From NCBI RefSeq assembly GCF_002900095.1, contig NZ_LLKN01000002.1:1178001-1242000 (forward strand): DNA of 64,000 nucleotides, read 5' to 3'. This DNA is from Salegentibacter mishustinae (lineage in GTDB: Bacteria > Bacteroidota > Bacteroidia > Flavobacteriales > Flavobacteriaceae). This document shows, one piece after another, positions 32,322-60,935 of this stretch (the stretch's first letter is position 1; every line of letters starts with the position of its first letter). The translations under genes were made by a program, and so were the position numbers. The notes beneath the pieces were generated by a model. The model made no database searches and was not told where the DNA came from. It worked only from the letters and a program-made list of their open reading frames with translations.

Positions 32322-32903
32322 TTATATAATTTCATCATAGAAATTTCGTTTCCATTTTTCTGTGTTTTTATAGTCGCTCATACTCATTCCCACAATCTCT
32401 TTAAACTGTCTTGATAAATGGTTAATGCTACTATAATCCAGCATATATGCCACATCTGAAAAAGAATATTGTTTTAATTGAATAAGTTCTTTTACTTTTT
32501 CAATTTTCAGTTTTATAAAGTATTTTTCAATGGTGGTGTTTTCATTTTTAGAAAACAGCCTGCTCAGTATTTTATAATCCCTGTTGAGCGTTGAAGACAA
32601 ATGTTCTGAAGTATTTGTTTTCAAATGAAGTGGTAACTGAGTAAGCAGTTGGATTAGAATCATTTTTACTTTTTCAACCAGCATTTCCCCTTCACTTTGT
32701 ACTATTTCAAAATCATTGGAATGAAGTACTTTGGTAACTTTATACGTAACCTCCGTGTTGGTGTTTTTTGAAGATTCAACCAATAGTTTACCTAATTCCA
32801 AAGAGAGTACGGTTATTCCCATCTCTTCCAGTTCTTGCGTTATTACTTTTAGACAACGGCTACATACCATATTCTTTATCCAGAATTCTTTCTGTAAATC
32901 CAT
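32322..32903 (-). CDS. AraC-family regulator with N-terminal HMA-like KNMVCxRC motif, copy 1
   Basis: 193 residues. Residues 1-75 read like a ferredoxin-fold metal-binding domain: WIKNMVCSRCLKVITQEL with a CxxC (about 13-16), then VLSLELGKLLVES. The C-terminal half (about 115-190) is an AraC DNA-binding domain: VEKYFIKLKIEKVKELI, YSFSDVAYMLDYSSINHLSR and FKEIVGMSMSDYK. I propose a cytoplasmic Cu(I) sensor that activates the neighbouring cassettes; this is inference. It shares its layout with 45055 and with decayed copies at 57670 and 60410. It is transcribed alone and away from the HYC pair. Confidence 0.8.
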   Translation of the reverse strand: MDLQKEFWIKNMVCSRCLKVITQELEEMGITVLSLELGKLLVESSKNTNTEVTYKVTKVLHSNDFEIVQSEGEMLVEKVKMILIQLLTQLPLHLKTNTSEHLSSTLNRDYKILSRLFSKNENTTIEKYFIKLKIEKVKELIQLKQYSFSDVAYMLDYSSINHLSRQFKEIVGMSMSDYKNTEKWKRNFYDEII

Positions 32904-33039
32904 AGTATTAATTATTTATTCTTAGAATGGTATTTATTCTAATAGATTATAAATTTCTGTTTTTCAAAAAGTTGAAAGTGTGGTATGCTCAGGATAGAGC
33001 GCACCAGTTGTTAGCCTTTGCGTAGTACAGGCCAACATA

Positions 33040-33068
33040 TAAGGTAGGTTGTTTGAAAAAGAACCTAC
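33040..33068. other. Small inverted repeat between the AraC and HYC_CC_PP genes
   Basis: GTAGGTT and AACCTAC form a 7-bp stem around an 11-base loop. It stands just past the stop of the minus-strand HYC gene and could be a weak terminator, but there is no T tract. Confidence 0.35.
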
Positions 33069-33079
33069 TTAGGATGAAA

Positions 33080-33496
33080 TCAAATTAAATATACCTCGTG
33101 GAGTACTTGAAAATCTTTCGGTATGAGGGGTGGGTCATAATCCCTAAAAGGGATTATATTTTGTTCCAACCCTTCGAATAGATTTACGTAAGTGTAAAAA
33201 AATGTGTGTAGGAAAATCAGTTTATGATTTTCCATCTCAAATGAAGCTTTTTGAAAGTTATCGCCACTTTCTTTAACTATAGATTTATTAGCACAGCAAC
33301 CTTTTTTTTCGAACGAACATTTTTTTGAAGGATTGGTCTGAGCCTTCACCGCATTATCACAAACCTGAGCTTTATTTAAAACCGCCATATCCACGAGTTT
33401 ATCACAGCAGAAATGCATATTCACAGTAAAAGACGATGAAGCAAACATTACTGCAAGTACCAATGAAACAGCTATTATTTTATTAAAGCTTTGCAT
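33080..33496 (-). CDS. HYC_CC_PP family secreted protein, copy 1
   Basis: 138 residues with an N-terminal signal/hydrophobic segment (IIAVSLVLAVMFASSSFTVNM). The family marks are all present: MHFCCDKLVDMA (H-x-C region, about 27), the cysteine pairs KKCSFEKKGCCAN (about 60) and the FRDYDPPLIPKDFQVLHE end (PP). Periplasmic or outer-leaflet; the cysteine and histidine set suggests copper binding, but the role is not known. It diverges from copy 2, of exactly the same length. Confidence 0.82.
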   Translation of the reverse strand: MQSFNKIIAVSLVLAVMFASSSFTVNMHFCCDKLVDMAVLNKAQVCDNAVKAQTNPSKKCSFEKKGCCANKSIVKESGDNFQKASFEMENHKLIFLHTFFYTYVNLFEGLEQNIIPFRDYDPPLIPKDFQVLHEVYLI

Positions 33497-33500
33497 AATA

Positions 33501-33508
33501 CGAATATA
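33501..33508 (-). promoter_or_regulatory. Candidate Bacteroidota -7 box for HYC copy 1
   Basis: On the minus strand this reads TATATTCG, one base from TAnnTTTG, and ends four bases before the ATG. If used, the transcript would have almost no leader. Confidence 0.35.
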
Positions 33509-33515
33509 AAAAAAA

Positions 33516-33529
33516 TTAACAAATGTTAA
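33516..33529. promoter_or_regulatory. Palindrome TTAACA-AA-TGTTAA in the HYC divergent promoter
   Basis: Arms TTAACA and TGTTAA are perfect inverted copies around AA, eight bases upstream of the -7 box of HYC copy 1. The position fits an operator or activator site; the binding protein is unknown. Confidence 0.4.
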
Positions 33530-33718
33530 CTAATTTTTAATAATGAATTTTTTAGGACTTATTTTTGCCGAACATACTGCAAAAAAGAAAATAAAAATAT
33601 GATATTTATCATATTTTTAGAAGTTTGATTCTTTTATTTTTGTCGAAAATAGTATAGGAAGTAAAAGTTTAACATAACGAAAAGAATTATTAATGTTTTT
33701 ATATTTCGTTGTTTTATA

Positions 33719-33726
33719 TATATTTG
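33719..33726 (+). promoter_or_regulatory. Bacteroidota -7 box for HYC copy 2
   Basis: TATATTTG matches the TAnnTTTG consensus exactly and ends seven bases before the ATG at 33734, so the message would be leaderless or nearly so. Two further TATTTTTG matches lie upstream near 33562 and 33637. Confidence 0.45.
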
Positions 33727-33733
33727 CAATCTT

Positions 33734-34150
33734 ATGAAATCGTTTTTCCATAAAATATTATCTGTAGCCTTGGCGAGTTTGGTATTTGTTACCACTATGT
33801 CGTTTACTGTAAATATGCATTATTGTGGAGATTCATTGGTTGATTTTGCTTTATTTCATAATGCTCAAACCTGTGGTATGGAAAATCAATCATCCCAAAA
33901 AAGTTGTGAAGCAGGTTTTTCGGAAAAATCTTGCTGTTCAGATGCACAAATAGTGAATGACGGTCAAGATGATTTAAAAACATCTTACACCAATTTAAGC
34001 TTTGAGCATCAAGCCTTTGTTGCTACTTTCTTTTATACTTATATTAATCTTTTTGATGGACTGGATAAGAACATTGTTCCATTTAGAGATTATACACCTC
34101 CTTATCTTGTAAGGAACGTACAAAAACTACACGAAACTTATTTAATTTGA
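33734..34150 (+). CDS. HYC_CC_PP family secreted protein, copy 2
   Basis: 138 residues, same plan as copy 1: signal segment, MSFTVNMHYCGDSLVDFALF (about 22), cysteine-rich FSEKSCCSDAQ (about 67) and FRDYTPPYLVRNVQKLHE end. It is probably periplasmic and metal-linked. It reads towards the CusA gene, 135 bp away, across two palindromes. Copies 1 and 2 are clearly homologous but differ at more than half of positions, so the duplication is old. Confidence 0.82.
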   Translation: MKSFFHKILSVALASLVFVTTMSFTVNMHYCGDSLVDFALFHNAQTCGMENQSSQKSCEAGFSEKSCCSDAQIVNDGQDDLKTSYTNLSFEHQAFVATFFYTYINLFDGLDKNIVPFRDYTPPYLVRNVQKLHETYLI

Positions 34151-34160
34151 TTTTAAACAG

Positions 34161-34180
34161 TTTCCGATAATTATCGGAAA
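34161..34180. promoter_or_regulatory. Perfect 20-bp palindrome upstream of cusA
   Basis: TTTCCGATAATTATCGGAAA is its own reverse complement. It lies 10 bp after the HYC stop. With the related palindrome at 34231 it forms a pair, so an operator is more likely than a simple terminator (no T tract follows). Confidence 0.5.
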
Positions 34181-34230
34181 GATTTGCTCTATGGTTACTT
34201 CCATCTTGGGCTTACTTTGTTGTGTTTAAT

Positions 34231-34249
34231 TTTCTGATATTATCAGAAA
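34231..34249. promoter_or_regulatory. 19-bp palindrome upstream of cusA, related to 34161
   Basis: TTTCTGATA-T-TATCAGAAA. The arms differ from those at 34161 by one compensated base pair (C/G against T/A). It is centred 46 bp before the cusA start. Confidence 0.5.
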
Positions 34250-34285
34250 GTTATTCAATGTATAACTGTTTAATTATCAATAAAG

Positions 34286-37200
34286 ATGCTAAATAAAGGC
34301 ATAAAATTTCTTATAGAAAACAAACTAGTAGCAATTATCCTCCTAGTCCTTTTTGTAGGCTGGGGCGTGGTAAATGCCCCTTTTAATTGGGAAACCGGTT
34401 TAATTCCGCGCGATCCCGTGGCGGTAGATGCCATCCCCGATATTGGCGAGAATCAACAAATTGTCTTTACCAAATGGGAGGGGAAATCCCCCCAGGATAT
34501 AGAAGACCAGATTACCTATCCCCTTACTACTTCGCTCCTGGGAATTCCCGGTGTGAAAACCATCCGGAGTTCCTCTATGTTTGGGTTTTCCAGTATTTAT
34601 ATCATTTTTGAAGAGGATATTGAGTTCTACTGGAGCCGTAGCCGGATTTTGGAAAAACTCAATTCCCTGCCGGCAAACCTGCTTCCCGAAGGTGTAAACC
34701 CTGCCCTGGGTCCCGATGCTACCGGGCTGGGCCAGGTTTTTTGGTACACCTTAGAAGGACGTGACAAAGATGGCAATGTTACCGGGGGCTGGGATTTGCA
34801 CGAACTGCGAAGCATTCAGGATTATTATGTGAAATATGGACTTTCCGGTGCCAGCGGGGTTTCCGAAGTTGCATCCATAGGTGGCTATGTGCAGGAATAT
34901 CAGGTAGATGTGGATCCCGAACTGATGCGTCAATACGATATTTCCCTGGCACAGGTGGTAAAGGCCGTAAAGGAAACCAACCGTGATATTGGTGCACAAA
35001 CCTTGGAAATAAATCAGGCCGAATATTTGGTACGTGGGCTGGGCTACGTTCAGGAAATAGAAGATATTGAAAATGCCGTGGTAACTTCAGAAGAATTTAC
35101 CAGTATCAAAATAAGCGACATTGCCAAAGTAAACCTGGGTCCGGAAACCCGCCGTGGTATCCTGGACAAAGAAGGTGCCGAGGTGGTTGGCGGAGTGGTT
35201 GTGGCTCGTTATGGCGCAAATCCGCTGGAAGTAATCAATAATGTAAAGGATAAAATAAATGAACTTAGCCCCGGCCTGCCCACCAAGGTGCTGGAAGATG
35301 GTCGCGAGTCGCAGGTAACTATTGTTCCATTTTACGATCGTACGCAACTGATTCAGGAAACCCTGGGCACGCTTAATGAAGCCCTTACATTGGAAATCCT
35401 GATTACGGTACTCGTAATTATCGTTATGGTTTTTAACCTACGGGCCTCCATCCTCATTTCCGGTTTATTGCCAGTAGCGGTTTTAATGGTCTTTATCTCG
35501 ATGAAGTTCTTTAATGTCGATGCCAATATCGTGGCCCTTTCCGGTATTGCCATTGCTATTGGGACCATGGTGGATGTGGGCGTGATCTTATCTGAAAATA
35601 TCATCCGGCATCTCGATCAGGACAAAGAACGGAAATATTTGACCACGAATGAAATCGTGTACAATGCCACTGCCGAGGTTTCCGGGGCAATTATGACGGC
35701 CGTGCTTACCACCATTATCAGTTTCCTTCCCGTCTTTACTATGGTGGGGGCAGAGGGGAAACTGTTCCGCCCACTGGCATTTACCAAGACCATGGCACTG
35801 GTGGCTTCCCTAGTGGTTGCGCTTTTCCTTATTCCGCCATTTGCCGCATCTTTCTTTAAGAAACGGACCCGGCGTACTTCCGCGGGCTGGGTAATACAGG
35901 GGATTCTGATAATTGCAGGGCTTACCGCTATTGTTTTTGGATATTTCATCGGTATTGTCCTAATTGCTTTTGGCGTAACCGGAATACTGCTTCTTAAAAA
36001 GAAAATTAGTTCCAAAAGATCAAATGTTATCAATATAGCTATTTCGGCTTTCGCCATAGTGCTACTTTTAGCCGAGTATTGGCGTCCGTTGGGTCTGGAA
36101 AAAAGTGTTTTCTGGAATTTTATTGTGGTAGGGATTATATCCTTTGGTTTGCTGGGTGTTTTTGCCCTGTTCCAAAAATTTTATACCCGCATCCTCAATT
36201 GGGCCTTGCGCAATAAGTTGTTGTTCTTGTCGGTGCCCACCGTTTTGGTTATTCTCGGTTTTATGATTATGCGCAACATTGGGCAGGAATTTATGCCCTC
36301 ACTCAATGAAGGCTCCTTCTTGTTGATGCCCACTTCGCTGCCCCATGCAGGTGTAGAGGAGAACAAGCGGGTCTTGCAGCAGCTGGATATGGCCGTGGCC
36401 GCTATCCCGGAAATTGAGACGGTAGTGGGCAAGGCAGGTCGTACAGAGTCTGCCCTGGACCCTGCACCTATATCCATGTATGAAAATACAATCCAATACA
36501 AACCTGAATATATGCTGAATGAACACGGCGAACGCCAGCGCTACCAGGTAAATGAAGACGGTTTATTTATGTTAAAAAATGGCAAATTGGCAATAAACCC
36601 AAGTTTAGAGGTGGACGAAGATGCAGCTGGCAGTTATAATGACAGCGAAATCGTGGAATTCCACCGCGTAAAAAACAAACAGCTCATTCCAGATGATGAC
36701 GGGGAATATTACCGTAACTGGCGCCCCGAAATAGAGTCGCCAGATGATATCTGGAACGAGATCACCGCCGCCACCAAGCTGCCGGGGGTAACCTCGGCGC
36801 CCAAGCTCCAGCCCATCGAGACACGGCTGGTAATGCTTCAAACGGGGATGCGCGCACCTATGGGAATCAAAGTGCAGGGGCAAAACCTTCGACAAATAGA
36901 AGATTTTGGACTCCAACTGGAAGACCTGTTAAAGCAAGTGGAAGGTGTAAAAGACGAAGCCGTTTTTGCCGACCGTATTGTTGGAAAACCTTACCTGCTT
37001 CTTGATATCAAGCGTGAACGTTTGGCTCGTTATGGTATTAGCATAGAAGAAGTTCAGCAACTTTTGGAGGTTGCTGTGGGAGGAAAACGCCTAAGTCAAA
37101 CGGTGGAAGGACGCGAACGCTACGGTGTACGCGTGCGCTACCCAAGGGAATTGCGGGACAGCCCGGAAGATATGGGCAATATCTATGTTCCGGTTGAGGG

Positions 37201-38068
37201 CGGCTCGCCGGTGCCGTTAGATGAGTTGGTAGATATCCGTTACGAGCAGGGGCCGCAGATAATAAAGAGTGAAGATACCTTCCTTATTGGCTATGTGCTT
37301 TTCGATAAACTCGATGGTTTTGCCGAAGTGGATGTAGTAGAAAATGCCCAGGCCCTTATTCAGGATAAAATCAATAACGGGGAGCTTAGCGTGCCCAAAG
37401 GCCTCAGCTATAAATTCACGGGGACTTACGAAAACCAGATTCGCGCTGAAAAAACGCTGAGTGTTGTGGTGCCACTGGCACTGATGATCATCTTTTTGAT
37501 CCTGTATTTCCAGTTCAAAAAGGTTTCGACCTCATTGATGATCTTTAGCGGCATCCTGGTGGCATTTTCCGGTGGGTTTATCCTCATTTGGCTCTATGGC
37601 CAGGGTTGGTTCCTGAATTTCGACTTTTTTGGCGAAAACCTTCGGCATATGTTTCAGATAAAAACCATAAACCTGAGTGTGGCGGTATGGGTAGGCTTTA
37701 TCGCCCTCTTTGGCATTGCGACCGATGATGGCGTTGTAATGGGGACCTACCTTACTCAAACCTTTGATAGGAACGAACCCAAGGACCGGGAAGAAATCCG
37801 TAAATCAGTAGTGGAAGCAGGGTCCAAGCGTGTTCGCCCCGCCTTGATGACCACGGCTACAACAATCCTGGCACTCCTGCCCGTACTGACGTCTTCGGGG
37901 CGTGGCAGCGATATTATGATCCCTATGGCCATCCCCGCGGTTGGAGGTATGTCTATAGCACTAATCACATTGTTTGTAGTGCCGGTGTTGTTTAGTTGGA
38001 GAAAAGAGGCCGGTTTAAAAACCCTGGAGACGGCGAATAATGACAAGAGAATAGAAAATAGAAATTAG
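34286..38068 (+). CDS. cusA: CusA-type RND copper/silver efflux pump, long form
   Basis: 1,260 residues; most CusA/CzcA proteins have about 1,040. The N-terminus is typical (TM1 then IPDIGENQQIVFTKWEGKSP), followed by the porter domain with GASGVSEVASIGGYVQEYQV, TM4 region GIAIAIGTMVDVGVILSENI (about 425) and a late IALFGIATDDGVVMGTYL (about 1145). Two additions stand out: about 90 residues with three extra membrane segments after TM6 (about 525-620), and a hydrophilic insert of about 60 residues (about 735-810). It drives Cu(I)/Ag(I) out by proton antiport within a CusCBA complex. cusC follows 16 bp later. Codon use is visibly richer in G+C than in the minus-strand half. Confidence 0.92.
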   Translation: MLNKGIKFLIENKLVAIILLVLFVGWGVVNAPFNWETGLIPRDPVAVDAIPDIGENQQIVFTKWEGKSPQDIEDQITYPLTTSLLGIPGVKTIRSSSMFGFSSIYIIFEEDIEFYWSRSRILEKLNSLPANLLPEGVNPALGPDATGLGQVFWYTLEGRDKDGNVTGGWDLHELRSIQDYYVKYGLSGASGVSEVASIGGYVQEYQVDVDPELMRQYDISLAQVVKAVKETNRDIGAQTLEINQAEYLVRGLGYVQEIEDIENAVVTSEEFTSIKISDIAKVNLGPETRRGILDKEGAEVVGGVVVARYGANPLEVINNVKDKINELSPGLPTKVLEDGRESQVTIVPFYDRTQLIQETLGTLNEALTLEILITVLVIIVMVFNLRASILISGLLPVAVLMVFISMKFFNVDANIVALSGIAIAIGTMVDVGVILSENIIRHLDQDKERKYLTTNEIVYNATAEVSGAIMTAVLTTIISFLPVFTMVGAEGKLFRPLAFTKTMALVASLVVALFLIPPFAASFFKKRTRRTSAGWVIQGILIIAGLTAIVFGYFIGIVLIAFGVTGILLLKKKISSKRSNVINIAISAFAIVLLLAEYWRPLGLEKSVFWNFIVVGIISFGLLGVFALFQKFYTRILNWALRNKLLFLSVPTVLVILGFMIMRNIGQEFMPSLNEGSFLLMPTSLPHAGVEENKRVLQQLDMAVAAIPEIETVVGKAGRTESALDPAPISMYENTIQYKPEYMLNEHGERQRYQVNEDGLFMLKNGKLAINPSLEVDEDAAGSYNDSEIVEFHRVKNKQLIPDDDGEYYRNWRPEIESPDDIWNEITAATKLPGVTSAPKLQPIETRLVMLQTGMRAPMGIKVQGQNLRQIEDFGLQLEDLLKQVEGVKDEAVFADRIVGKPYLLLDIKRERLARYGISIEEVQQLLEVAVGGKRLSQTVEGRERYGVRVRYPRELRDSPEDMGNIYVPVEGGSPVPLDELVDIRYEQGPQIIKSEDTFLIGYVLFDKLDGFAEVDVVENAQALIQDKINNGELSVPKGLSYKFTGTYENQIRAEKTLSVVVPLALMIIFLILYFQFKKVSTSLMIFSGILVAFSGGFILIWLYGQGWFLNFDFFGENLRHMFQIKTINLSVAVWVGFIALFGIATDDGVVMGTYLTQTFDRNEPKDREEIRKSVVEAGSKRVRPALMTTATTILALLPVLTSSGRGSDIMIPMAIPAVGGMSIALITLFVVPVLFSWRKEAGLKTLETANNDKRIENRN

Positions 38069-38084
38069 AAGAAAGCTTTTTACT

Positions 38085-39366: not shown

Positions 39367-41196
39367 ATGAAGAAATATATCATTTACACCGGATTAGTGT
39401 TAGCAGGATTGCTCCTTGGCTATCTGTTCTTTGGTGGCAATTCGTCTGAAAAAAATGTCGAAACAGCCACTACAGAAGAACACAATCACGAGGAGGAAAA
39501 CCAGCTGTGGACCTGCTCTATGCACCCGCAGATTATGCAGCCCGAACCGGGCGATTGCCCCATTTGCGGGATGGACCTTATCCCTGCCGAGAGTGGCGGC
39601 GGCGAGGTTGGGCCGCAACAAATAGAAATGTCTGAAACCGCCCTGGCTCTGGCCAATATCCACACCGTGGAGATCGGCGATAGCCTCTTAGGGGATCACG
39701 ACCTGGTGCTCTCCGGGAAGATCGTGGAGAACGAAGAGGTGAAAAGTGTGCAGGCTTCTTATTTTGGCGGCAGGATAGAAAAACTTTATATAAATTACAC
39801 CGGGGAGGAAGTACGCCGCGGGCAGGTGTTGGCCACTATTTATTCCCCAGAGCTGGTCTCTGCCCAGCAGGAATTGCTTACCGCTGTGGGGATGAAGGAC
39901 TCTCAGTCCCGGTTATACGAATCTGTACGCCGAAAATTGAAATTATGGAAACTCAGCGACAAGCAAATTGAAGAAATTGAAGCTTCTGGGGAAGTTAAAG
40001 AATATTTCCCTATTTATGCTACGGTTTCAGGTACGGTGACCGAAAAACTGGTGGAAGAAGGTGATTATGTAGAGCAGGGCCAGTCCCTTTATGAGATTGC
40101 CAACCTTAGTATTGTATGGGCACAATTTGATGCTTATGAAAACCAGATTGCCCAGCTTGAAGAAGGGCAACAGATTAGCGTGACTGCCAATGCCTTGCCG
40201 GGAAAAGAATATGAAGTGCCCATTACTTTTATTGAACCACTGCTTAATACTGCCACCCGTACGGTAACTGTACGTGCAGTCCTGCCCAATAAGGAAGGTC
40301 GTCTAAAACCCGGAATGTTCGTGCGTGGAAAAGTGGCACCGGCCAAGAAAAAAAATGCAGATATTGAAGAACCCCAGCTTATTACAGTGCCAAAATCGGC
40401 CGTGATGTGGACCGGGGAACGTTCGCTGGTTTACGTACAACCCAATCCAGACAGGCCTGTCTTTGAAATGAGGGAAGTGAGCCTGGGTGCCGCAGCGGGT
40501 GGTAATTATGCGGTTACAGATGGCTTGAGTACCGGAGAGCGCATTGTGGTAAACGGTGCCTTTACCGTAGATGCTGCCGCACAACTCCAGGGCAAAAAGT
40601 CTATGATGAACAAGGACGGAGGCAAGACATCTACCGGTCACGAGGGCCACGCCGGTATGGACATGGCAGGTAGCGAGGGTAATGCCAATATGGAAACGGC
40701 AGGAACCGGCAACGTTGACCATACCGAAATGCAGGAACGCATCGTGGTACCTGAAGAGTTCACCAACCAGCTAAATGGCGTTTTTGATCAATATTTGAAG
40801 TTGAAAAACGCCCTGGTGGAAGATGAGGCCAAAACCGCCCAAGCAACTGCAAATAAAGTACTGGAAGCAATGAACAAGATAGATATGAGTCTTTTAGAGG
40901 ATCGTGAAGCTCACGACCACTGGATGCTGATTTCAAAAGAAGTAATTGGTGCTGCGGAAAAAATAACGGAGAGTGAAGATATTTCTACTCAGCGGGATCA
41001 TTTTAAACACCTGTCTGCCCATTTGAGCAAAGCGATGCAACTTTTTGGAGTGGGACAGACCGTTTATAAGCAATTTTGCCCTATGGCAGATGACAATGCG
41101 GGAGCCTACTGGCTCAGCCGTTCAGAAGAGATCAAAAACCCTTATTACGGTAGCGCAATGTTAACCTGCGGCGAAATCGTGGAAACTATAAACTAA
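39367..41196 (+). CDS. cusB: CusB-type adaptor with heavy-metal-binding domain and C-terminal DUF3347 domain
   Basis: 609 residues. N-terminal anchor, a His/Glu-rich spacer, then the heavy-metal-binding domain with WTCSMHPQIMQPEPGDCPIC followed by GMDLIP (about 50-75). The membrane-fusion core follows: VQASYFGGRIEKLY, biotinyl-lipoyl-like and beta-barrel parts (about 90-410). A Met/His-rich link (HEGHAGMDMAGSEG) leads to a DUF3347 domain (about 455-609), ending FCPMADDNAGAYWLS and NPYYGSAMLTCGEIVETIN. It links CusA to CusC and probably passes metal to the pump; the extra domain may capture Cu(I) in the periplasm. Confidence 0.9.
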   Translation: MKKYIIYTGLVLAGLLLGYLFFGGNSSEKNVETATTEEHNHEEENQLWTCSMHPQIMQPEPGDCPICGMDLIPAESGGGEVGPQQIEMSETALALANIHTVEIGDSLLGDHDLVLSGKIVENEEVKSVQASYFGGRIEKLYINYTGEEVRRGQVLATIYSPELVSAQQELLTAVGMKDSQSRLYESVRRKLKLWKLSDKQIEEIEASGEVKEYFPIYATVSGTVTEKLVEEGDYVEQGQSLYEIANLSIVWAQFDAYENQIAQLEEGQQISVTANALPGKEYEVPITFIEPLLNTATRTVTVRAVLPNKEGRLKPGMFVRGKVAPAKKKNADIEEPQLITVPKSAVMWTGERSLVYVQPNPDRPVFEMREVSLGAAAGGNYAVTDGLSTGERIVVNGAFTVDAAAQLQGKKSMMNKDGGKTSTGHEGHAGMDMAGSEGNANMETAGTGNVDHTEMQERIVVPEEFTNQLNGVFDQYLKLKNALVEDEAKTAQATANKVLEAMNKIDMSLLEDREAHDHWMLISKEVIGAAEKITESEDISTQRDHFKHLSAHLSKAMQLFGVGQTVYKQFCPMADDNAGAYWLSRSEEIKNPYYGSAMLTCGEIVETIN

Positions 41197-44058: not shown

Positions 44059-45021
44059 AATTGAGTTATACATATAAGAGCCGTATATTAGCCCTTGTAA
44101 ACATTGATTATGGATAAATTTAAAGGTAAAAATATCCTAGACTTTATGAAAGTCTTTCCGGATGATGGGTCATGTAGGGAATATTTGGCTAACTTGAAAT
44201 GGCACGATGGATTTACTTGTCCAAAATGCGGTCATACTAAAGGATGCTTAAAAAAAGACCATAAGTATCATTGCTATGGTTGTGGAAAGGTAGAATCTTC
44301 AACGGCCGGAACACTTTTTCATAAGGTCAAGTTCGGGCTACGAAAAGCCTTTTGTATCGTTTTTGAGATGAGTACAACTAGCAAAAGCCTCTCCAGTATC
44401 CAAATGGGCGAACGTTATGGTATCCGCCAGGGCACAGCCTGGTATTTTATGCACAAAGTACGCTCGGCAATGGAAAGCAGCAAAAAACATCCTTTGAAAG
44501 GTTTGGTTCATGTCGATGAATTTATCATTGGCGGACAAGAAGAAAATGCTCCTGGCAGAAGCTACAACACCCGTAAAACCAAGGTTATAATAGCGGTGGA
44601 GCTTAATGAAGAACGCAAAGTTAAACGTGCCTACGCCAAGGTAATTGACGATTATTCCGCCAAGTCATTTACCCCATTGTTCGAACAGCATATATCTGAA
44701 GAAGCAAAGGTGGTTACCGACAAATGGCGAGGTTACAGCCCATTAAAGAAAAAGTATAATATCGAGCAGGTACCTAGTAATAAAGGAAAAAATTTCAAGG
44801 AACTTCATATTATAATCCACAAGATAAAGTCTTGGTTGAGGACAGTTCATGCGCCTATTTCAAAACAACATGTCAGAAGGTACCTGGATGAATATTCATA
44901 CAGGTTGAATCGATCACAGTCAAAACAAACCATTTTTCACAATAATATAAAGAGAATGATACAAGGAAAACCACGGCTACATTCCCAAATTATTAATGGT
45001 AGCTAAATGTATAGCTCAATA
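44059..45021 (+). mobile_element. IS1595-family insertion sequence
   Basis: The imperfect terminal inverted repeats AATTGAGTTATACAT (44059-44073) and, reversed, TATTGAGCTATACAT (45007-45021) agree at 13 of 15 positions and enclose one transposase gene. Length is about 0.96 kb, normal for the family. The A-rich sequences just outside do not give an exact 8-bp target duplication. The right end lies only about 33 bp upstream of the AraC start. Confidence 0.75.
44104..45006 (+). CDS. IS1595-family transposase (ISXO2-like)
   Basis: 300 residues. N-terminal zinc ribbon CPKCGHTKGCLKKDHKYHCY (about 39-58) continuing into GC, then FHKVKFGLRKAF and the helical part QMGERYGIRQGTAWYFMHKV. The ISXO2-like DDE-type core has HVDEFIIGGQEENAPGR (first acidic residue about 140), VTDKWRGY (second, about 204) and an Asn/Glu end helix. 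It appears intact. It inserts copies of the element and presumably split the region between the haem protein and the regulator. Confidence 0.9.
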   Translation: MIMDKFKGKNILDFMKVFPDDGSCREYLANLKWHDGFTCPKCGHTKGCLKKDHKYHCYGCGKVESSTAGTLFHKVKFGLRKAFCIVFEMSTTSKSLSSIQMGERYGIRQGTAWYFMHKVRSAMESSKKHPLKGLVHVDEFIIGGQEENAPGRSYNTRKTKVIIAVELNEERKVKRAYAKVIDDYSAKSFTPLFEQHISEEAKVVTDKWRGYSPLKKKYNIEQVPSNKGKNFKELHIIIHKIKSWLRTVHAPISKQHVRRYLDEYSYRLNRSQSKQTIFHNNIKRMIQGKPRLHSQIINGS

Positions 45022-45054: not shown

Positions 45055-45624
45055 ATGATTATAGAAGTCTTTGTTAAAAATATGGTTTGCAATAGATGTA
45101 TTAAGGTGGTAAGGAATGAGTTACTTGAAGCAGGTATAGATCTACAGGAGGTTGAGTTGGGTCGTGTAGTTTACCAAAGTAACCACCCTGATATGGATCA
45201 TGCCAAGTTGCTTAAAGTACTTAGCGAAAACGGCTTTGAACTATTAGAGAGCGATGAAAAAATTTTAATCGAAAAGGTAAAACTTAGTCTAATACGGCTT
45301 TTGGAAAACCTTCCCCTGCAAAAATCAGGGACTTTATCCCGCTACTTATCCAAAGAAACCAAAATTGATTATTCGCGGTTGAGTCGGATTTTTTCCTATA
45401 CCGAAAACATAACGGTAGAAAAGTATTTTATAAAGCTGAAAATTGAAAAAGTAAAAGAGCTCATTCAGTCCAAACAATATAATTTTACCCAGATTAGTCA
45501 GCTATTGGATTATACTAATGTAAATTATCTTTCCAGGCAATTTAAAGCAGAAACAGGGATGAATTTATCTCAATATAAAAAACTTAATAACAATTTTAGA
45601 AATTCTTTAGACCAAATTGTGTAA
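45055..45624 (+). CDS. AraC-family regulator with N-terminal HMA-like KNMVCxRC motif, copy 2
   Basis: Start set at 45055 (MIIEVFVKNMVCNRC): the longer frame from 45007 would begin inside the IS terminal repeat, and the shorter form matches copy 1 in length. 189 residues. HMA-like domain with CNRC (about 12-15), VELGRVVYQ (about 37), then the AraC half with VEKYFIKLKIEKVKELI (identical over that run to copy 1), FTQISQLLDYTNVNYLSRQF and ETGMNLSQYK. Proposed Cu(I)-responsive activator of the genes that follow. The IS just upstream could have removed or replaced its promoter. Confidence 0.82.
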   Translation: MIIEVFVKNMVCNRCIKVVRNELLEAGIDLQEVELGRVVYQSNHPDMDHAKLLKVLSENGFELLESDEKILIEKVKLSLIRLLENLPLQKSGTLSRYLSKETKIDYSRLSRIFSYTENITVEKYFIKLKIEKVKELIQSKQYNFTQISQLLDYTNVNYLSRQFKAETGMNLSQYKKLNNNFRNSLDQIV

Positions 45625-45636
45625 GTATCTATCATA

Positions 45637-45685
45637 ATTGTAACAATATAAGTTGCCGATAAAAAGTAATTTAGAAAATTGTAAC
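45637..45685. promoter_or_regulatory. ATTGTAAC repeats before the DUF3347 gene
   Basis: A palindrome ATTGT-A-ACAAT (45637-45647) and a second ATTGTAAC (45678-45685) lie 41 bp apart in the 77-bp gap after the regulator. Their place suggests binding sites for that regulator; nothing else supports it. Confidence 0.3.
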
Positions 45686-45701: not shown

Positions 45702-46247
45702 ATGAGAAAATTATCAAAAATTGGGATGTTATTTCTAGTGGTCTTGATCTTTGTTTCCTGTATGGATAAAGAAAAAGGCCAAAGTGTAGAAATTAATACT
45801 CCAGAGGAAGTAAAAAATGCTGAAAAGCAAACTGAAGATATTGCTGACCAGGATTTTATAGATGGTATGACTGGAAAAATCTGGCATAATTACCTGGAAA
45901 TTAAAATGGCACTTACCAATGATGACTCCGGCCAGGCAAAGGATGCAGCGAAAAGTATGGCCGATTCTTTCTCAGAAGAGCGTGCAGAATTAAAATCTAT
46001 CGCTGAGCAATTGGGAGACACTGATGATATTGGGGAGCAGAGAAGATTATTTTCAAAGTTTACAGAATTGGCTGGGCCTATGTTTGAGGAAGCCCTATCC
46101 GGTGGGACCATTTACAAGAAATTCTGTCCTATGGCTTTTAATAATGATGGTGCATACTGGTATGCTGATGTAGAGGAGATTAAAAATCCATATTTCGGTG
46201 ATAAAATGCTGAATTGTGGTTCCGTAAAAAAAACTATAGAAAAGTAA
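45702..46247 (+). CDS. DUF3347 lipoprotein
   Basis: 181 residues. Lipobox VLIFVSC (Cys about 20) followed by MDKEKGQ. One DUF3347 domain: IWHNYLEIKMALTNDDSGQ (about 61), RRLFSKFTELAGPMFEEAL (about 104) and FCPMAFNNDGAYWYADVEEI followed by NPYFGDKMLNCG. It is periplasmic, probably Cu(I)-binding. It is the first structural gene after the regulator; DUF305 and a multicopper oxidase follow in the same direction. Confidence 0.86.
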   Translation: MRKLSKIGMLFLVVLIFVSCMDKEKGQSVEINTPEEVKNAEKQTEDIADQDFIDGMTGKIWHNYLEIKMALTNDDSGQAKDAAKSMADSFSEERAELKSIAEQLGDTDDIGEQRRLFSKFTELAGPMFEEALSGGTIYKKFCPMAFNNDGAYWYADVEEIKNPYFGDKMLNCGSVKKTIEK

Positions 46248-46279
46248 AATTTCCCAATAAACCTTAAAAACCCAATTAG

Positions 46280-46774
46280 ATGAATTCAGAAAATAACAAT
46301 AACCACAAGTCTGGTGGAAGCAATTATGGTCGGTTTTTCCTAATGCTCGGCTTGTCTTTCGTAGCCATGTATATCACGATGTATCTTAATACTTATGAAT
46401 ATGATCATGTGTACTTTAGTTTAACCCGTTTCTATATGACCTGTCTGGGAATAGCGGCTATGGCAGTAATCATGTTATCTCTTATGCTGAAAATGTATAA
46501 AAGTAAGAAGAAGAATATCGCTATTTACATCGGTAGCCTGGTGTTATTTGTTTCAGCCTTAGGTTTGGTAAGGGCACAACGTCCCATTATTGGAGATGTC
46601 TTATATATGAAAGCGATGATCCCTCACCATTCCATTGCAATTTTAACCAGTAAACGGGCAGACCTTCAGGATCCTGAAACCAAGAAACTGGCCGAAGAAA
46701 TTATTGAGGCCCAGAAAAGGGAAATCGCCCAAATGAAGAAGATCATTTATCGTTTGGAGAACGAAAATAAATAA
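46280..46774 (+). CDS. DUF305 family membrane protein
   Basis: 164 residues with three membrane segments (about 15-35, 53-73, 80-98), then a C-terminal DUF305 part with YMKAMIPHHSIAILTSKRAD (about 114) and EIIEAQKREIAQMKKII. The MxPHH motif is typical and could bind metal. It is 11 bp upstream of the multicopper oxidase gene. Role in copper resistance inferred from context. Confidence 0.85.
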   Translation: MNSENNNNHKSGGSNYGRFFLMLGLSFVAMYITMYLNTYEYDHVYFSLTRFYMTCLGIAAMAVIMLSLMLKMYKSKKKNIAIYIGSLVLFVSALGLVRAQRPIIGDVLYMKAMIPHHSIAILTSKRADLQDPETKKLAEEIIEAQKREIAQMKKIIYRLENENK

Positions 46775-46785
46775 AATAACAAACT

Positions 46786-49236
46786 ATGAAATTGAAAAAT
46801 TACTTTCTAATCCTACTGATATTTTTAGGTTTTTCGGGTTACAGCCAGGAAGAATTAGAGGCATCCGTAGAAGGAAACGTTGACGATCTGCCTGTGCGGG
46901 AATACACGTTGACCTTGCGGGAAGAACAGGTCAACAAGGCTGGCAAGCCGGTTATGGGTATGACCGTAAACGGTCAGATCCCCGGGCCCACATTAGATTT
47001 TAATGAAGGGGAATATGCCATAATTTATGTGAAGAATGAAATGAGCGTAGAGTCTTCCATTCACTGGCACGGTATGTTGCTGCCCAATTTTTATGATGGT
47101 GTACCCTACCTTTCTACCCCACCTATAGAACCCGGCAAAACCTTAAAATATGAATTTGCAATAAAGCAAAATGGTACCTATTGGTACCATTCCCATACGA
47201 TGTTGCAGGAACAGAGTGGTGTTTTTGGCTCCATCGTCATACAACCGAAAGACAAAACATTGGAGTATGATAAAGAGCAGGTTTTGGTATTGTCTGACTG
47301 GACCAATGAAAAGCCCCAGGATGTAATGCGGTTTTTAAAACGGGGCACAGAATGGTACAATATAAGAAAAGGGACGGCCACACCGCTCAACCAGGTTATT
47401 GCCAGGGGGGCACTGGGCGCGCAGGTCGATTTTTGGAGACAGCGTATGGAAAGCGCGGATATAGCGGACATATATTACCCGGCGTTCTTAATAAATGGAG
47501 AAGAAAATGTGGAATATCCCGAATTCAAACCTGGGGAGAAAGTACGCCTGCGCATTATTGACGGCTCTGCATCAACTTCATTTTGGATGGCCTTTGGCGG
47601 CCCAGACCCTTTGCTTGTCTCGGCAGATGGTAAAGATGTTGTTCCTGTTAAAAGAAACAAAACCTTTATTGCCGTTGCGGAAACCTACGATTTTATCGTG
47701 ACCATACCGGAGAACGGCAAACTGGAATTTAAAATTATGGCCCAGGATGGCTCCGGAACCGCAACTGCTTACTTGGGCCAAGGCCCTATCGTTGCCGCCC
47801 CTGATGTTTCCAGACCGGATAAAATCGGGATGATGCAGCAAATGGCCAAAATGAAAATGAAAATGGGTGCACCCGCTTTAAAATTCCGCCCGGGCAAAGA
47901 CGAGCGATATCAGATGAAGGAGAAATGGGGCATGCAAATGGACGATAATATGCAGATGGAAGGAATGAAGGAAATGAATATGGATATGATGAATGGGGAC
48001 AAGTCCAATGGTAAGGATATGGAAATGAAGAAAGATGAAATGGACGGAATGCAAATGGATATGAAAAAGGATTCGATGCAGATGGACCGTTCCAAAATGG
48101 CCGGGATGGATACGAAAAAGGATACCAAAATGAAAGAGGCCTCTCAAATGGAGGATATGAACAAGACGAACCCGACTGCCGGACGGGAAGTAATGGACGA
48201 AGCAGATGGCATGCAGGGAATGGCTATGTTTTCGCAATACAACTATGACTACCTGAAGTCGCCAGAGAAGACCAGCTATGATCCCGATGTGCCCGTATCC
48301 GAAATCCTACTGAACCTTACCGGGAATATGCAACGCTATATCTGGAGTATGAACGGTGTCCCTTTATCTGAGGCAGATAAAATAAAAATCAAGGGAGACG
48401 AGGTGACCAGGATTACTTTTAACAACCTGACTATGATGCACCACCCCATGCACCTTCACGGCCACTTCTTTAGGGTCATCAATGAAAACGGGGAATATTC
48501 CCCTCTAAAACACACGGTCAATGTACCGCCAATGCAAAAGGTGACCATTGAATTCTATGGCAATGAATACGGCGATTGGTTTTTCCATTGCCATATCCTT
48601 TACCATTTAGTAGGTGGTATGGCACGCATTGTAAGCTATGACACCCCTAGGGATCCAAGGTTAGAGGAATATCCTGTCTCCAAGCTCTTGGATGAGACCG
48701 ATCAGTATTATTCCTACGGAATGATAGATGCGGCATCGCATATGACCACATTGAACCTGATATCGTCCAATATCCGAAATCAATTCAGTTTTCGGGGGGA
48801 ATACGGGTGGAACAAGAATATGGAGGTGGAAGCTGCTTATGATAGATACCTTTATGATTATTTGACAGTTTTTGCCGGTGTAAATGTCGAGAACGGAATG
48901 GAGGATAGCCTCGATGAGATAACAACAACAGCAATAGCAGGTGTACGATATCTCACTCCTTACTTATTTACGTTGGATGTGCGAATGGACAGCAAATTGC
49001 GCCCGCAAATTAGCCTGAGCCGTGCGATCAGTATTTTTCCGCGAACAATATTGTTCGGAATGTACGAGTACCAGGCAGATTTTGGGTGGGTAGATGAACT
49101 GCCTCAAGGAAATAATTTCAAAAAAGAGGTTACCTGGAGTACAGGTATTGAATATTTTTTATCCAAGAATTTTTCCTTGATGGGAAGCTATGACAACCGT
49201 TTTGGCGCTGGTGGTGGATTATCATTACGATTCTAA
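46786..49236 (+). CDS. Multicopper oxidase (CopA type) fused to a CopB-like beta-barrel
   Basis: 816 residues; CopA alone is usually 550-620. Signal peptide (LILLIFLGFSGYSQ). Copper sites: HWHGMLLPNF (about 87), YWYHSHTMLQEQSG (about 129), MHHPMHLHGHFF (about 550) and DWFFHCHILYHL (about 597). A Met-rich insert (about 345-480; repeats such as MQMEGMKEMNMDMM) probably binds Cu(I). After residue 625 the chain changes to alternating beta strands (FRGEYGWNKNMEVEAAYDRY, GVRYLTPYLFTLDVRMDSKL) and ends GGGLSLRF with a terminal Phe, like outer-membrane CopB. So oxidase and barrel, usually two genes, are one chain. It oxidises periplasmic Cu(I). Confidence 0.88.
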   Translation: MKLKNYFLILLIFLGFSGYSQEELEASVEGNVDDLPVREYTLTLREEQVNKAGKPVMGMTVNGQIPGPTLDFNEGEYAIIYVKNEMSVESSIHWHGMLLPNFYDGVPYLSTPPIEPGKTLKYEFAIKQNGTYWYHSHTMLQEQSGVFGSIVIQPKDKTLEYDKEQVLVLSDWTNEKPQDVMRFLKRGTEWYNIRKGTATPLNQVIARGALGAQVDFWRQRMESADIADIYYPAFLINGEENVEYPEFKPGEKVRLRIIDGSASTSFWMAFGGPDPLLVSADGKDVVPVKRNKTFIAVAETYDFIVTIPENGKLEFKIMAQDGSGTATAYLGQGPIVAAPDVSRPDKIGMMQQMAKMKMKMGAPALKFRPGKDERYQMKEKWGMQMDDNMQMEGMKEMNMDMMNGDKSNGKDMEMKKDEMDGMQMDMKKDSMQMDRSKMAGMDTKKDTKMKEASQMEDMNKTNPTAGREVMDEADGMQGMAMFSQYNYDYLKSPEKTSYDPDVPVSEILLNLTGNMQRYIWSMNGVPLSEADKIKIKGDEVTRITFNNLTMMHHPMHLHGHFFRVINENGEYSPLKHTVNVPPMQKVTIEFYGNEYGDWFFHCHILYHLVGGMARIVSYDTPRDPRLEEYPVSKLLDETDQYYSYGMIDAASHMTTLNLISSNIRNQFSFRGEYGWNKNMEVEAAYDRYLYDYLTVFAGVNVENGMEDSLDEITTTAIAGVRYLTPYLFTLDVRMDSKLRPQISLSRAISIFPRTILFGMYEYQADFGWVDELPQGNNFKKEVTWSTGIEYFLSKNFSLMGSYDNRFGAGGGLSLRF

Positions 49237-57605: not shown

Positions 57606-57669
57606 GCGTAAGAATAACTTGCTTGGTTTTCGCACCTTGTAGGTTGTTCAAAAGTTTTTGGGTCAAAGT

Positions 57670-58224
57670 AAATAAAGGGTGCATAAATAAACGTGGTGTG
57701 CTAGAGGTGCTTATAGTGGTAAAAGAAATTTTTAATAATTTGAATATTCCTTTTTCCGTGGTAAACCTTTGTGAGGCCATTATAGAAAGGAAGCTCTCTG
57801 CTGTTGAGAAAGAGCAACTATAAACAGAATTTGAAAAATTAGGGTTCGAGATCATTGAAAGCCGTAATGAAAAATTAATTAGATAAAATCCTTAATTATT
57901 AAAAAGGTTTATTCAAAAGACACCGCAAACGATAAATTTTCAACTATGCCTAGCTCGCACCTGCACTTCGATTATAGACATATAACCCACATCTTTACAG
58001 ATAGGGAGGGACAGAGTATTCAGCAGCTTTACATCTCGGTTCGAATTGAACGCGTAAAAGAACTTTTAAATTACGATGATTGGAGTATCGCGATGATTGC
58101 AGATAACCTTGGATATTCCACAGCCGCCTATCTTTCAACTTCATTTAAAAAGGCAACTGGGCTTTCCCCTTCAGGTTATAGGAAGTTACAAGTAAAAGAC
58201 CGGAAAAGTATAAATATGGTCTAA
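57670..58224 (+). pseudogene. Decayed HMA-AraC regulator, copy 3
   Basis: Near 57686 one frame reads NVVC-stop-RC, a broken NMVCxRC motif. Another frame then gives VVKEIFNNLNIPFSVVNLCE, a stop at 57821, and TEFEKLGFEIIESRNEKLIR, the counterpart of NGFELLESDEKILIE in copy 2. The C-terminal AraC half is still open (57946-58224): QQLYISVRIERVKELLNYDD, IADNLGYSTAAYLSTSFKKA and SPSGYRKL. Frames shift at least twice, so the full protein is lost, though the HTH half could be expressed. Confidence 0.7.
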
Positions 58225-58302
58225 GTTTCCCTTGGTATGGAAGTTTAACAGGGTTAGCTTGTTCAAGGGGCTACTTAGGTCAAATAAAATAAAGCATAAA
58301 AT

Positions 58303-59316: not shown

Positions 59317-59402
59317 AGTGCTTTGTTAAATATCTTTAGAATTGAAACATCTTGGTAGAATTTTAAAACCCCATTTAGTTTTTAGTTTATAATTTCAACA
59401 TT

Positions 59403-59660
59403 ATGAGAAATGAGAAATTAATTCATGCGTTTCGACGTTACATTATTCATTACAGTTATTGGCTGATGCCTGTCTAGATGAAAATAATGTAAAGATGATG
59501 AAAGATTGGATTAGAATTGACAAGATATGTGCTGAAGTTTATGCCACTTAAAACCATTTTAGTACAAGCTATAGCGATGTGAATGACTTAATATTGTAAA
59601 AAAGTATGTCTGGATTGTGTGCAGGTTTGTAAAGAATGTGTAGAAGCTTATTTGACTTAA
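59403..59660 (+). pseudogene. Decayed four-helix copper-storage protein (Csp-like)
   Basis: Pieces in three frames: MRNEKLIHA; then ADACLDENNVKMMKDWIRID and KICAEVYAT; then KVCLDCVQVCKECVEAYLT to TAA at 59658. The order and cysteine spacing fit the small four-helix copper-binding proteins (Csp/DUF326) of Bacteroidota, which line a helix bundle with Cys to store Cu(I). Several Cys have become Trp or Tyr and there are stops and frameshifts, so it is dead. Confidence 0.65.
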
Positions 59661-60003
59661 GTGGACGTGAATTAGTTATTTGATACCCGTTTAGCCCAGA
59701 TTTTTTATTTACGATTTAGCGGGATACGTCAGTTTTTGAACCTATTGGAATATTACGTCTTTTTTGAGGTCGCGACCGGTGAATTGCCAGCTTGAGGCTC
59801 TTAATCTATAATATTTAGTGTTTTTGTAGTTCTTGAAAATACTCTTTCATTTCACTGTCAAATATGCGTTTAAAGTAATTTCAGGGCGATCTTTTGCCTA
59901 TGACTACTTAATAAATTAGGGCGATCATAACTTTTGATTTTAGCTAATTATAAGAAATAACTCTTAACTGGGCAATTTTGACTAATCATATAAATATAAT
60001 ATA
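59661..60003. other. Non-coding stretch after the Csp relic
   Basis: No gene seen. The 9-mer AGGGCGATC occurs twice (about 59883 and 59929). On the minus strand a short open piece reads YFKRIFDSEMKEYFQELQKH and stops; it may be the tail of a lost gene. Confidence 0.4.
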
Positions 60004-60168
60004 ATGAGTGCAAATAGAAGAGAGAGAAGAAAAAATAAAAACAGGAAAAAGTCAAAATCCAAGAAAGATACTGTTTCCAAAAAAGATAAAATTTATGGTA
60101 TTCTTGCTTTAATTATTTTGTTTTTTGCAGCCTTATTTGCTGCCATTTCTTTTGCTTTTATGGCTTAG
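60004..60168 (+). CDS. Small basic single-pass membrane protein
   Basis: 54 residues. A strongly basic start (NRRERRKNKNRKKSKSKKD) and one hydrophobic segment (GILALIILFFAALFAAISFA) with a short end. It looks like a real small membrane protein because of the clear charge/hydrophobic split, but I know no family. Confidence 0.5.
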   Translation: MSANRRERRKNKNRKKSKSKKDTVSKKDKIYGILALIILFFAALFAAISFAFMA

Positions 60169-60326
60169 AGTATATATTTAAAACCTAAATTATGATTAAT
60201 ACTCTTTATCGAGTTATCAATTTAAGTTCCATTTTAAATGACCAGAATAATGCGGGTACTTCTAAATAATTTAAGATGTTTGGGCCTAATGAATTTACCT
60301 TAAAGACATATTTATATTATATTCTG

Positions 60327-60372
60327 CCACCAATCCACGAATACTTTCTACAATTTATTGGTGGATTCGTGG
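60327..60372. repeat. 16-bp inverted repeat in a decayed intergenic region
   Basis: Left arm CCACCAATCCACGAAT (60327-60342), right arm ATTGGTGGATTCGTGG (60357-60372), 14-base loop. The arms pair at 14 of 16 positions as one stem. Each half also pairs perfectly with the non-nested half (CCACCAAT with ATTGGTGG, CCACGAAT with ATTCGTGG). Confidence 0.5.
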
Positions 60373-60409
60373 CTCCTTTGCGCATTTTTGGGCAGACTAA
60401 GAATATTCT

Positions 60410-60935
60410 ATGGTCCCGGTAATTGACTTTATAACTCCAACTCTTTATATTAAAAATATGGTGTGTGCACGCTGTATAAGCTCAGTCGCGTTTATCTTAG
60501 ATAAGTTGAAAATTTCTTACAGTGTCATCAAACTGGGTGAAGTATATTTAGAATAAGAATTAAATGAACAAACAAAAACCTTTTGAAAAAAGAACTTCGG
60601 AATTCTGGTTTTAGTCTAAAAACCGATCGAAAAAGTCAACTCATTGAACAAATGAAAAGCCTGGTAGTGGAAAAAATTCACCACTCCAATAAGTTTTTCG
60701 ATATAAAATGGCCAGAATTTATAAGTGAAAAATTACATCTTAACTATAAGTACCTTAGCTCTTTTTTTCTGCTGTAGAAGGCATAGCATTTGAGTTATAC
60801 ATCATCAACCAGAAAATTGAATGTGTTAAAGAATTCATTGATTATTATAAATTGACTTTAAGTGAGATAGTTTTTAAACTAGATTATAGTAGCGTTGCCT
60901 ATTTAAGCAATCAGTTCAAAAAAGTAATGTACTGA
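60410..60935 (+). pseudogene. Decayed HMA-AraC regulator, copy 4
   Basis: 60410-60556 is open and reads LYIKNMVCARCISSVAFILD and on to VIKLGEVYLE: a full HMA-like domain with KNMVCARC. It stops at TAA 60554. Later pieces match the AraC half in shifting frames (RNSGFSLKTDR for the NGFELLESD region; LNVLKNSL; YSSVAYLSNQFKKV). The trace ends at QFKKVMY, where CusA sequence begins. A dead gene, perhaps still giving a 48-residue HMA peptide. Confidence 0.72.

Follow-up and report, generated by a model that had tools for sequence, protein, structure and literature searches.

A phylum-wide family of AraC-type proteins with an HMA-like CxxC domain as candidate copper-export regulators of Bacteroidota

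Introduction

How do Bacteroidota sense copper in the cytoplasm? The question is left open in the consulted parts of two papers (PMC10141476 and PMC11213822) and is raised anew by a 64,000-nucleotide stretch of Salegentibacter mishustinae DNA (contig NZ_LLKN01000002.1, 1,178,001-1,242,000; hereafter the window, whose positions are used below). The window contains several copies of a gene for a protein that combines an HMA-like CxxC domain with an AraC-type DNA-binding half (HMA-AraC). An initial annotation of the window proposed these proteins as an uncharacterized one-component Cu(I) sensor class. They are described here as a distinct, phylum-wide and copper-linked class with a shared candidate operator, for which we infer Cu(I) as the signal. 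The class is new in its domain make-up, an AraC-family regulator with an HMA-type domain, and the candidate operator is newly found as well.

In a survey of 76 marine bacteria, Bacteroidota "only harbored" homologues of two-component systems and extracytoplasmic function (ECF) sigma factors, according to the part of the text consulted (PMC10141476). For Bizionia argentinensis, the consulted sections of PMC11213822 describe MerR and CopY relatives without copper sites and propose ArsR-family proteins and CusRS-like systems as copper regulators; the word "AraC" is absent from these sections. B. argentinensis carries an HMA-AraC gene between a resistance-nodulation-division (RND) pump operon and a multicopper oxidase gene (locus L041). 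No description of such a class was found in the consulted parts of the open-access literature searched.

Domain structure of HMA-AraC

The window contains four copies of the HMA-AraC gene, two intact and two decayed, as initially annotated; open reading frames (ORFs), codons and reading frames place the decayed ones at 57687 and 60452.

45055..45624, + strand: intact HMA-AraC regulator of line A, 189 aa (ORF list, Pfam, model, family profile), with an HMA-like domain at about residues 1-65, a linker helix at 67-84 and an AraC helix-turn-helix (HTH) pair at about 94-178
45076..45099, + strand: KNMVCNRC codons of the 45055 gene (Cys12, 45088-45090; Cys15, 45097-45099)
32322..32903, - strand: intact HMA-AraC regulator of line B, 193 aa (ORF list, Pfam, tree)
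57687..58224, + strand: decayed copy with the HTH half open at 57946-58224 (92 aa)
60452..60935, + strand: decayed copy with the CxxC part in frame, followed by stops and frame breaks

The 45055 gene is counted from the ATG at 45055; the mechanical ORF opens earlier, at 45007. A codon search of the window finds zero-mismatch KNMVC codons at 32862 (-), 45076 (+) and 60452 (+). The 60452 copy retains KNMVCARC. In the 57687 copy, the Cys motif is divided between frames, stops are present and the open part comprises the HTH half only.

The annotated pairing of a CxxC domain with an AraC DNA-binding half is borne out by HTH_18 matches, a structural model and the match of a family profile to copper HMA domains. 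The C-terminal half forms the double HTH of AraC/XylS proteins, with Pfam HTH_18 scores of 47.7 and 43.6 bits in the intact copies (E 1.9e-12 and 3.8e-11) and 63.4 bits in the open HTH half (E 2.5e-17), against a cut-off of 33.6 bits. An AlphaFold2 model built from 47 relatives has a mean predicted local distance difference test (pLDDT) value of 92.5 and a predicted TM-score (pTM) of 0.83. The N-terminal half of the model adopts the strand-helix-strand-strand-helix-strand (βαβ-βαβ) arrangement of the HMA fold (strand 2-8, helix 13-25, strands 29-34 and 37-41, helix 45-58 and strand 62-64) with the MxCxxC loop after strand 1, and is followed by the helix 67-84 and the HTH pair. In a Foldseek search against the PDB, AraC-type domains rank first, and CopZ (2qif; TM-score 0.76 by target length, root-mean-square deviation 2.6, E 0.03) and HAH1 are also matched. 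Fold and profile matches of the DNA-binding half are AraC, MarA and GadX domains. With the family sequence profile, single-domain CopZ (1k0v) is found at 1.8e-5 alongside further copper HMA proteins, the value of 3.6e-9 for ATP7B being summed over the ATP7B repeats; among the PDB profile matches listed, no chain spans both halves.

In single sequences, the Pfam HMA model (PF00403) misses its gathering cut-off, with 13.1 bits against 24.8 (E 0.13) for the 45055 copy and no listing for the 32322 copy. No NCBIfam model reached its cut-off for the regulators, and the N-terminal half lies above no Pfam or NCBIfam cut-off. The CxxC domain therefore escapes single-sequence annotation, yet the family profile recovers it.

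The MxCxxC motif is present in all 45 members from a phylum-wide sample, and an Arg residue precedes the second Cys (MVCxRC) in 44 of them. Conservation is quoted from this sample because the top 80 loci were found partly via the KNMVC pattern; the motif occurs in 96 of 98 members of this pattern-biased top set, the exceptions being L050 (Thr for Met) and the second copy in L072 (Ser for the first Cys). The latter (L072:5648-6208) is a tandem second family member with the sequence IKHMVSLRC, located behind a normal copy.

HMA-AraC shares the C-terminal double HTH with the AraC/XylS family, whose cupin or other ligand domain is replaced at the N-terminus by an HMA-type CxxC domain of ~65 aa. 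The βαβ-βαβ fold and the MxCxxC loop are common to HMA/CopZ, Atx1 and CopA N-terminal domains, whereas the regulator's domain is fused to a DNA-binding half and has Arg between the Cys residues.

Copper-gene neighbourhood and distribution

Neighbour profiles detect copper or metal-export genes near 75 of the 80 top loci, a partly circular count given that the copper profiles were built from recurrent neighbours of these loci. Such genes also lie near 32 of the 37 loci of the phylum sample, and none of 20 further positions of the same genomes has them; the sample, the random places and the sister-clade loci described below were not used for the copper profiles, but the clustering included the sister loci. 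The regions reach ±5 kb for the top 80 loci (contig ends shorten some of them), ±6 kb for the sample and ±4 kb for the sister loci, and measure 12.6 kb for the random places. Profiles were named via Pfam for cluster representatives and, for the pump, via CusA in the PDB; the label MFP_CusB also takes in DUF3347-only proteins.

The phylum-sample loci are mostly ordered as regulator, copZ and P1B ATPase, and multicopper oxidases occur in 29 of the 80 top loci. The Cu(I)-type motifs CPC, NX6YNX4P and MX2SSX5NX2R are all present in 38 of 45 near-full-length P1B ATPases. All three CusA Met-triad motifs, read from a CusA alignment, are found in 36 of 43 long RND pumps.

At E <= 1e-20, a threshold that also admits sister-clade proteins, the family is matched in 182 of the 395 genomes of Bacteroidota searched, with 95 of 171 genera represented; the search scored at most eight candidates per genome. 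Matches below E 1e-50, a level that no fetched sister-clade protein attained, are found in 173 genomes. Within the taxonomic family, 76 of 149 genomes match. Of 72,556 plasmid records, 30 match, and all hosts listed are Bacteroidota. The named loci include Balneola, Gracilimonas and Ignavibacteria.

Candidate operator

A 30-bp motif, ATTTTATAAAacaTTTccAAAATTnTGTAA, was obtained by expectation maximization (EM) from the gap between the regulator and copZ/copA in 28 usable sequences of the 37-locus sample. Its log-likelihood is 212, compared with 83-97 in six resampled controls (80 starts for the real set and 40 for the controls). The motif reaches at least 15 bits in 18 of the 28 sequences, and in 14 of these 18 it lies 46-70 bp ahead of the next start codon. 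The candidate operator consists of two ATTnTrTAA half-sites in a direct repeat at 21 bp, followed 21-22 bp on by a TAnnTTT box. In three site sets, 6.33, 5.15 and 6.14 of the first nine letters recur at +21, and the other spacings from 10 to 23 give at most 3.98. The TAnnTTT box is observed 19-24 nt downstream in 26/54, 26/34 and 22/29 sites (shuffle means of 1.1, 0.7 and 0.3). By sequence alone, the site fits a direct-repeat operator beside a core promoter, as in the AraC/XylS family; the 21-bp arrangement corresponds to that at araI1-I2, and TAnnTTTG is the Bacteroidota -7 element. No separate, well-spaced -33 element is observed.

In held-out named loci, the motif is located ahead of copA, ArsP-type, HYC/cusA and regulator genes (HYC denotes small exported Cys/His-rich proteins, from HYC_lipo, a name coined in this analysis); L103 contains three occurrences, and L042, L089 and L101 contain two each. 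In lines A and B, which include the intact window genes, a motif variant starts in the last codons of the regulator; the site sets of these lines were pre-filtered by the first half-site pattern, and the first half overlaps codons. Both intact window genes show this variant.

45616..45645, + strand: candidate operator over the stop codon of the 45055 gene, with two half-sites in 21-bp register
45667..45674, + strand: candidate -7 box TAATTTAG, 21 nt past the operator, with one mismatch to TAnnTTTG
32301..32330, - strand: candidate operator over the stop codon of the 32322 gene, also matched by model R2 (below)
32272..32279, - strand: candidate -7 box TAGCTTTC, 21 nt past the operator of the 32322 gene

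The letters and spacing of TAATTTAG are identical in the paralogue L002. The divergent region 33497-33733 was considered as an operator and rejected; it contains an FNR-like palindrome and no clear 21-bp repeat. The palindrome, which resembles TGATAnnnaTCAT and lies between divergent HYC genes, is conserved in most of 20 aligned regions, including the window.

Genome-wide matches of the operator model

Model R1, composed of 34 sites, was run on 20 genomes with and 20 genomes without the regulator, whose fetched loci are absent from R1; training sites also came from the genera of six of the 20 carriers, and test species may coincide with named training loci. In 12 of 20 carriers, R1 has a match no more than 1 kb from the regulator, and in nine it is the best match of the genome. 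Outside the training genera, 8 of 14 carriers are positive. In 11 of the 12 positives, the site is located 19-120 bp past the regulator stop codon, and in one 840 bp past it. At E <= 1e-3, nine of the 20 carriers have an R1 match and none of the 20 non-carriers does, the best non-carrier value being 0.0016.

In G096, G033 and G190 (two genera), the best match lies on another contig, ahead of an HYC-like gene and a CusA-type pump gene; the site therefore predicts unlinked copper targets. Two further R1 matches were rejected as copper targets: the gene following the match in G138 has no copper label, and the match in G088 falls inside a 921-aa ORF. Model R2 was built from 32 sites of lines A and B with the window excluded. 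Its best match in the genome of the window is 32273-32330 (E 2.1e-8), and 45616-45672 ranks third of four matches (E 0.0084).

CxxC-less sister clade

A sister clade is set off from the HMA-AraC proteins by one branch (Shimodaira-Hasegawa-like approximate likelihood-ratio test, SH-aLRT, 99; 14 versus 85 rows). The tree is a quick one with SH-aLRT as its only support, and the CxxC columns were included. Sister proteins have the same length, the same HTH pair and the same kind of DNA site as HMA-AraC, but differ in that MxCxxC is absent (0 of 14 members; the one in 15 as counted is L126, a truncated HMA-type gene) and in that copper genes occur at 0 of 14 loci. The L126 gene (3964-4350) encodes a shortened member with the HMA half and the motif, the full HTH being absent. 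A sister model (pLDDT 87.7) keeps the helix-strand-strand-helix core and an HTH close to that of the main clade. The neighbouring genes encode a receiver-domain protein at 12 of 14 loci and a GAF histidine kinase at 10 of 14. In L120-L134 (except L126), the site lies ahead of genes that by eye resemble those for Dps, CsbD and a ~337-aa AraC protein.

The sister clade is likely a general-stress regulator that shares the operator. Since the recognition-helix region is nearly identical in both clades, one common DNA specificity with exchanged sensors is the simpler account. The 30-bp motif profile (PWM30) was rejected as a copper-only signature; it marks the sister loci too.

Paralogues and other genes of the window

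The genome contains six family members in total, four of them intact; two intact ones lie outside the window. At 73% identity, the 45055 gene pairs with the intact gene at G000:C2:1.007 Mb. The intact gene at 1.013 Mb is the partner of the open HTH half at 57946, a starred pairing in the tree but one with a long branch and 48% of columns filled. The 32322 gene falls in a third, different flavobacterial line. A recent four-fold amplification of the window copies is ruled out by the tree, in which the copies occupy separate lines. The decayed block at 57.0-59.7 kb mirrors the make-up of the 1.013 Mb locus, a regulator followed by a DUF326 copper-storage-type gene, and a decayed DUF326-like stretch is visible near 59403-59660. 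Same-genus relatives (G001) give the same truncated matches.

33080..33496, - strand: small exported Cys/His-rich protein (HYC_lipo) upstream of the 32322 gene; its cluster representative has no Pfam match
33734-34150, + strand: second HYC-type gene, beside the CusA-type pump
34286-38068, + strand: CusA-type RND pump with all three Met-triad motifs
39367..41196, + strand: CusB-type membrane fusion protein, 192.7 bits to the cluster profile (cluster representative HlyD_D23/DUF3347/HMBD)
44104..45006, + strand: IS1595-type transposase, 48 bp ahead of the 45055 gene
45702..49236, + strand: operon probably controlled by the 45055 line, coding for a cluster-3/DUF3347-like protein, a DUF305 protein and a multicopper oxidase
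60965-63946: heavy-metal RND pump directly after the decayed 60452 copy, with a late ORF start and no Met-triad motifs

The statement that all copies adjoin copper genes holds for the intact pair; the pump next to the 60452 copy lacks the CusA Met-triad motifs. The IS1595-type transposase gene is inserted just before the 45055 regulator; relatives such as locus L026 have no such gene there.

Comparison with known copper regulators

The initial annotation reported no CueR, CopY or CusRS. Genome-wide, this claim is not supported: a CusR/CzcR-like response regulator is encoded at 1.714 Mb with a histidine kinase and beside a heavy-metal RND pump, and scores 223.7 bits to cztR_silR_copR (cut-off 279.2). 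CopY was not sought in the genome. Two MerR-family matches are found in the genome of the window, neither of which looks CueR-like by size and context. The CueR cut-off is reached in 0 of 198 Bacteroidota genomes, 28 of which have weaker MerR relatives. Three equal-scoring CsoR-family genes are present in the genome of the window (G000:C2 11.7 kb, 1248.8 kb and 2882.1 kb). One of them was read; by eye it seems to lack the C-H-C copper ligands, and it adjoins a DUF326 gene. The CsoR family (PF02583) occurs in 61 of the 198 genomes, with strong matches (E below 1e-15) in 52. An HMA-AraC match is found in 1 of these 52 genomes versus 95 of the 146 others (nominal Fisher p 3e-17, with kinship ignored); most of the 52 belong to one family, and relatedness confounds this exclusion.

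The regulators themselves belong to none of these classes. Their HTH half matches AraC-type models only (Pfam and NCBIfam), not the MerR-type DNA-binding domain of CueR, and neither PF02583 nor the BlaI/CopY winged helix with CxCxxxxCxC is among their Pfam matches. CueR, which controls copA, copZ and multicopper oxidase genes according to the consulted part of PMC10141476, is likewise a one-component regulator, but its DNA-binding fold and promoter logic are unrelated to those of HMA-AraC. CsoR and CopY sense cytoplasmic Cu(I) beside copZ/copA, as predicted for HMA-AraC; CsoR is an all-helical C-H-C sensor and CopY a winged-helix protein, both unlike HMA-AraC. CusRS and CopRS control cusCBA-type pumps, as is also predicted for HMA-AraC, but sense in the periplasm through a kinase, whereas HMA-AraC is a single, predicted cytoplasmic chain.

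Proposed mechanism and alternative explanations

HMA-AraC proteins very probably control copper export, and they probably do so as Cu(I)-responsive activators. The full reading, in which they are one-component copper-export regulators of Bacteroidota that bind Cu(I) through MxCxxC and exert class II-type activation from the 21-bp repeat, is given a probability of about 0.76. The analysis itself shows how the domains are combined, how widely the family occurs, that copper genes surround it, and that it shares with them an operator-like site of fixed geometry, ranked genome-wide. In the mechanism that we infer, which includes the identity and binding of the metal, dimerization, and activation rather than repression, cytoplasmic Cu(I) would be taken by the MxCxxC loop of the HMA/CopZ-like domain, possibly after delivery by ligand exchange from a CopZ-type chaperone, often encoded next door. 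The Cu-bound form would set the C-terminal double HTH as a head-to-tail pair on the two ATTnTrTAA half-sites, which lie exactly 21 bp, or two helical turns, apart in direct repeat. The promoter-proximal half-site would occupy the position of the -33 element, 21-22 bp before the TAnnTTTG-type -7 box, a placement from which the protein, once bound, would function as a class II-type activator. Operons for copZ/copA, cusA and multicopper oxidases are the predicted targets. The candidate site in the window extends over the stop codon of the regulator gene itself and is directed towards the gene that follows.

Several observations weigh against this reading. Seven of the 45 P1B ATPases (four of the CPH type, two with a Zn-type motif and one cut) and 7 of the 43 RND pumps lack the full Cu(I) motif set. 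The -7 box of the line-A site of the window carries a mismatch, and no clear operator is seen ahead of the cus operon in the window itself; the corresponding promoter at the paralogous locus carries a weak site of 10.0 bits with a TATTTTTG box behind it. In the R1 test, 8 of 20 carriers have no site near the regulator (one of these, G190, has a 26.2-bit site by another profile), and the genus overlap with the training set affects 6 of the 20 test genomes. Sister loci carry the same site as often or more often: scored with the same profile, 11 of 14 exceed the random maximum (14.1 bits), versus 17 of the top 80 loci. Because the site is shared with a CxxC-less clade, it is on its own no mark of copper.

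The sharing of the site would also fit an arrangement in which the site serves another factor and the HMA-AraC genes are carried along in copper islands as bystanders, as would the weak matches (best E 0.0016) in some AT-rich, regulator-free genomes. This explanation is very unlikely, given the confinement of R1 matches at E <= 1e-3 to carriers, the nearly identical recognition-helix region of the two clades and the location of the site within ~120 bp of the regulator stop codon in 11 of 12 positive test genomes. An apo protein that blocks the promoter until metal releases it is unlikely but the least improbable of the alternatives: polymerase could be kept out by protein bound at the site, which overlaps the -33 region. 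The constant distance of 21-22 bp to the -7 box points to polymerase contact instead, a separate -33 element is not seen, and AraC-family proteins at this position are mostly activators.

The same regulator could respond to other or mixed thiophilic metals (Ag, Hg, Cd or Zn) if its HMA domain is not copper-selective. HMA domains also occur in Zn, Cd and Hg proteins, ZiaA is among the fold matches, ArsP-type permeases adjoin several copies, Arg between the Cys residues is unusual in copper HMA loops, and the CPH-type and Zn-type ATPases noted above point the same way. This possibility appears rather improbable, as the majority of neighbouring P1B ATPases and RND pumps carry Cu(I)-type or Met-triad motifs, multicopper oxidases are frequent and the best PDB profile matches to HMA domains are copper proteins. 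Least probable of all is a thiol-redox sensor whose CxxC answers oxidants or disulfide stress, with copper acting indirectly. CxxC motifs can serve as redox switches, and line-B loci also contain NDH2-, UspA- and cytochrome c-type genes and the FNR-like palindrome; against this, the full HMA fold is retained together with the Met that stands two residues ahead of the first Cys, which fits metal ligation, and most loci adjoin metal exporters rather than redox enzymes.

Copper-responsive activation by HMA-AraC can be placed in a wider scenario, which we consider slightly better than an even chance. A captured CopZ-type domain, loaded by its paralogue CopZ, would drive an activating AraC HTH as the phylum's own sensor in place of CueR, CsoR and CopY, and the sister clade would have lost the metal site, kept the DNA code and been rewired to a receiver/kinase stress pathway.

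Biological significance

HMA-AraC may be the missing copper sensor of Bacteroidota, a phylum that includes many gut, soil and marine bacteria exposed to copper. The family, its candidate operator and the predicted regulon make the question of copper sensing in this phylum directly testable, and hosts with few copper-responsive promoter parts could be supplied with one based on the candidate site. If the relationship between the main and sister clades is as proposed, sensing would have been swapped on an unchanged operator.

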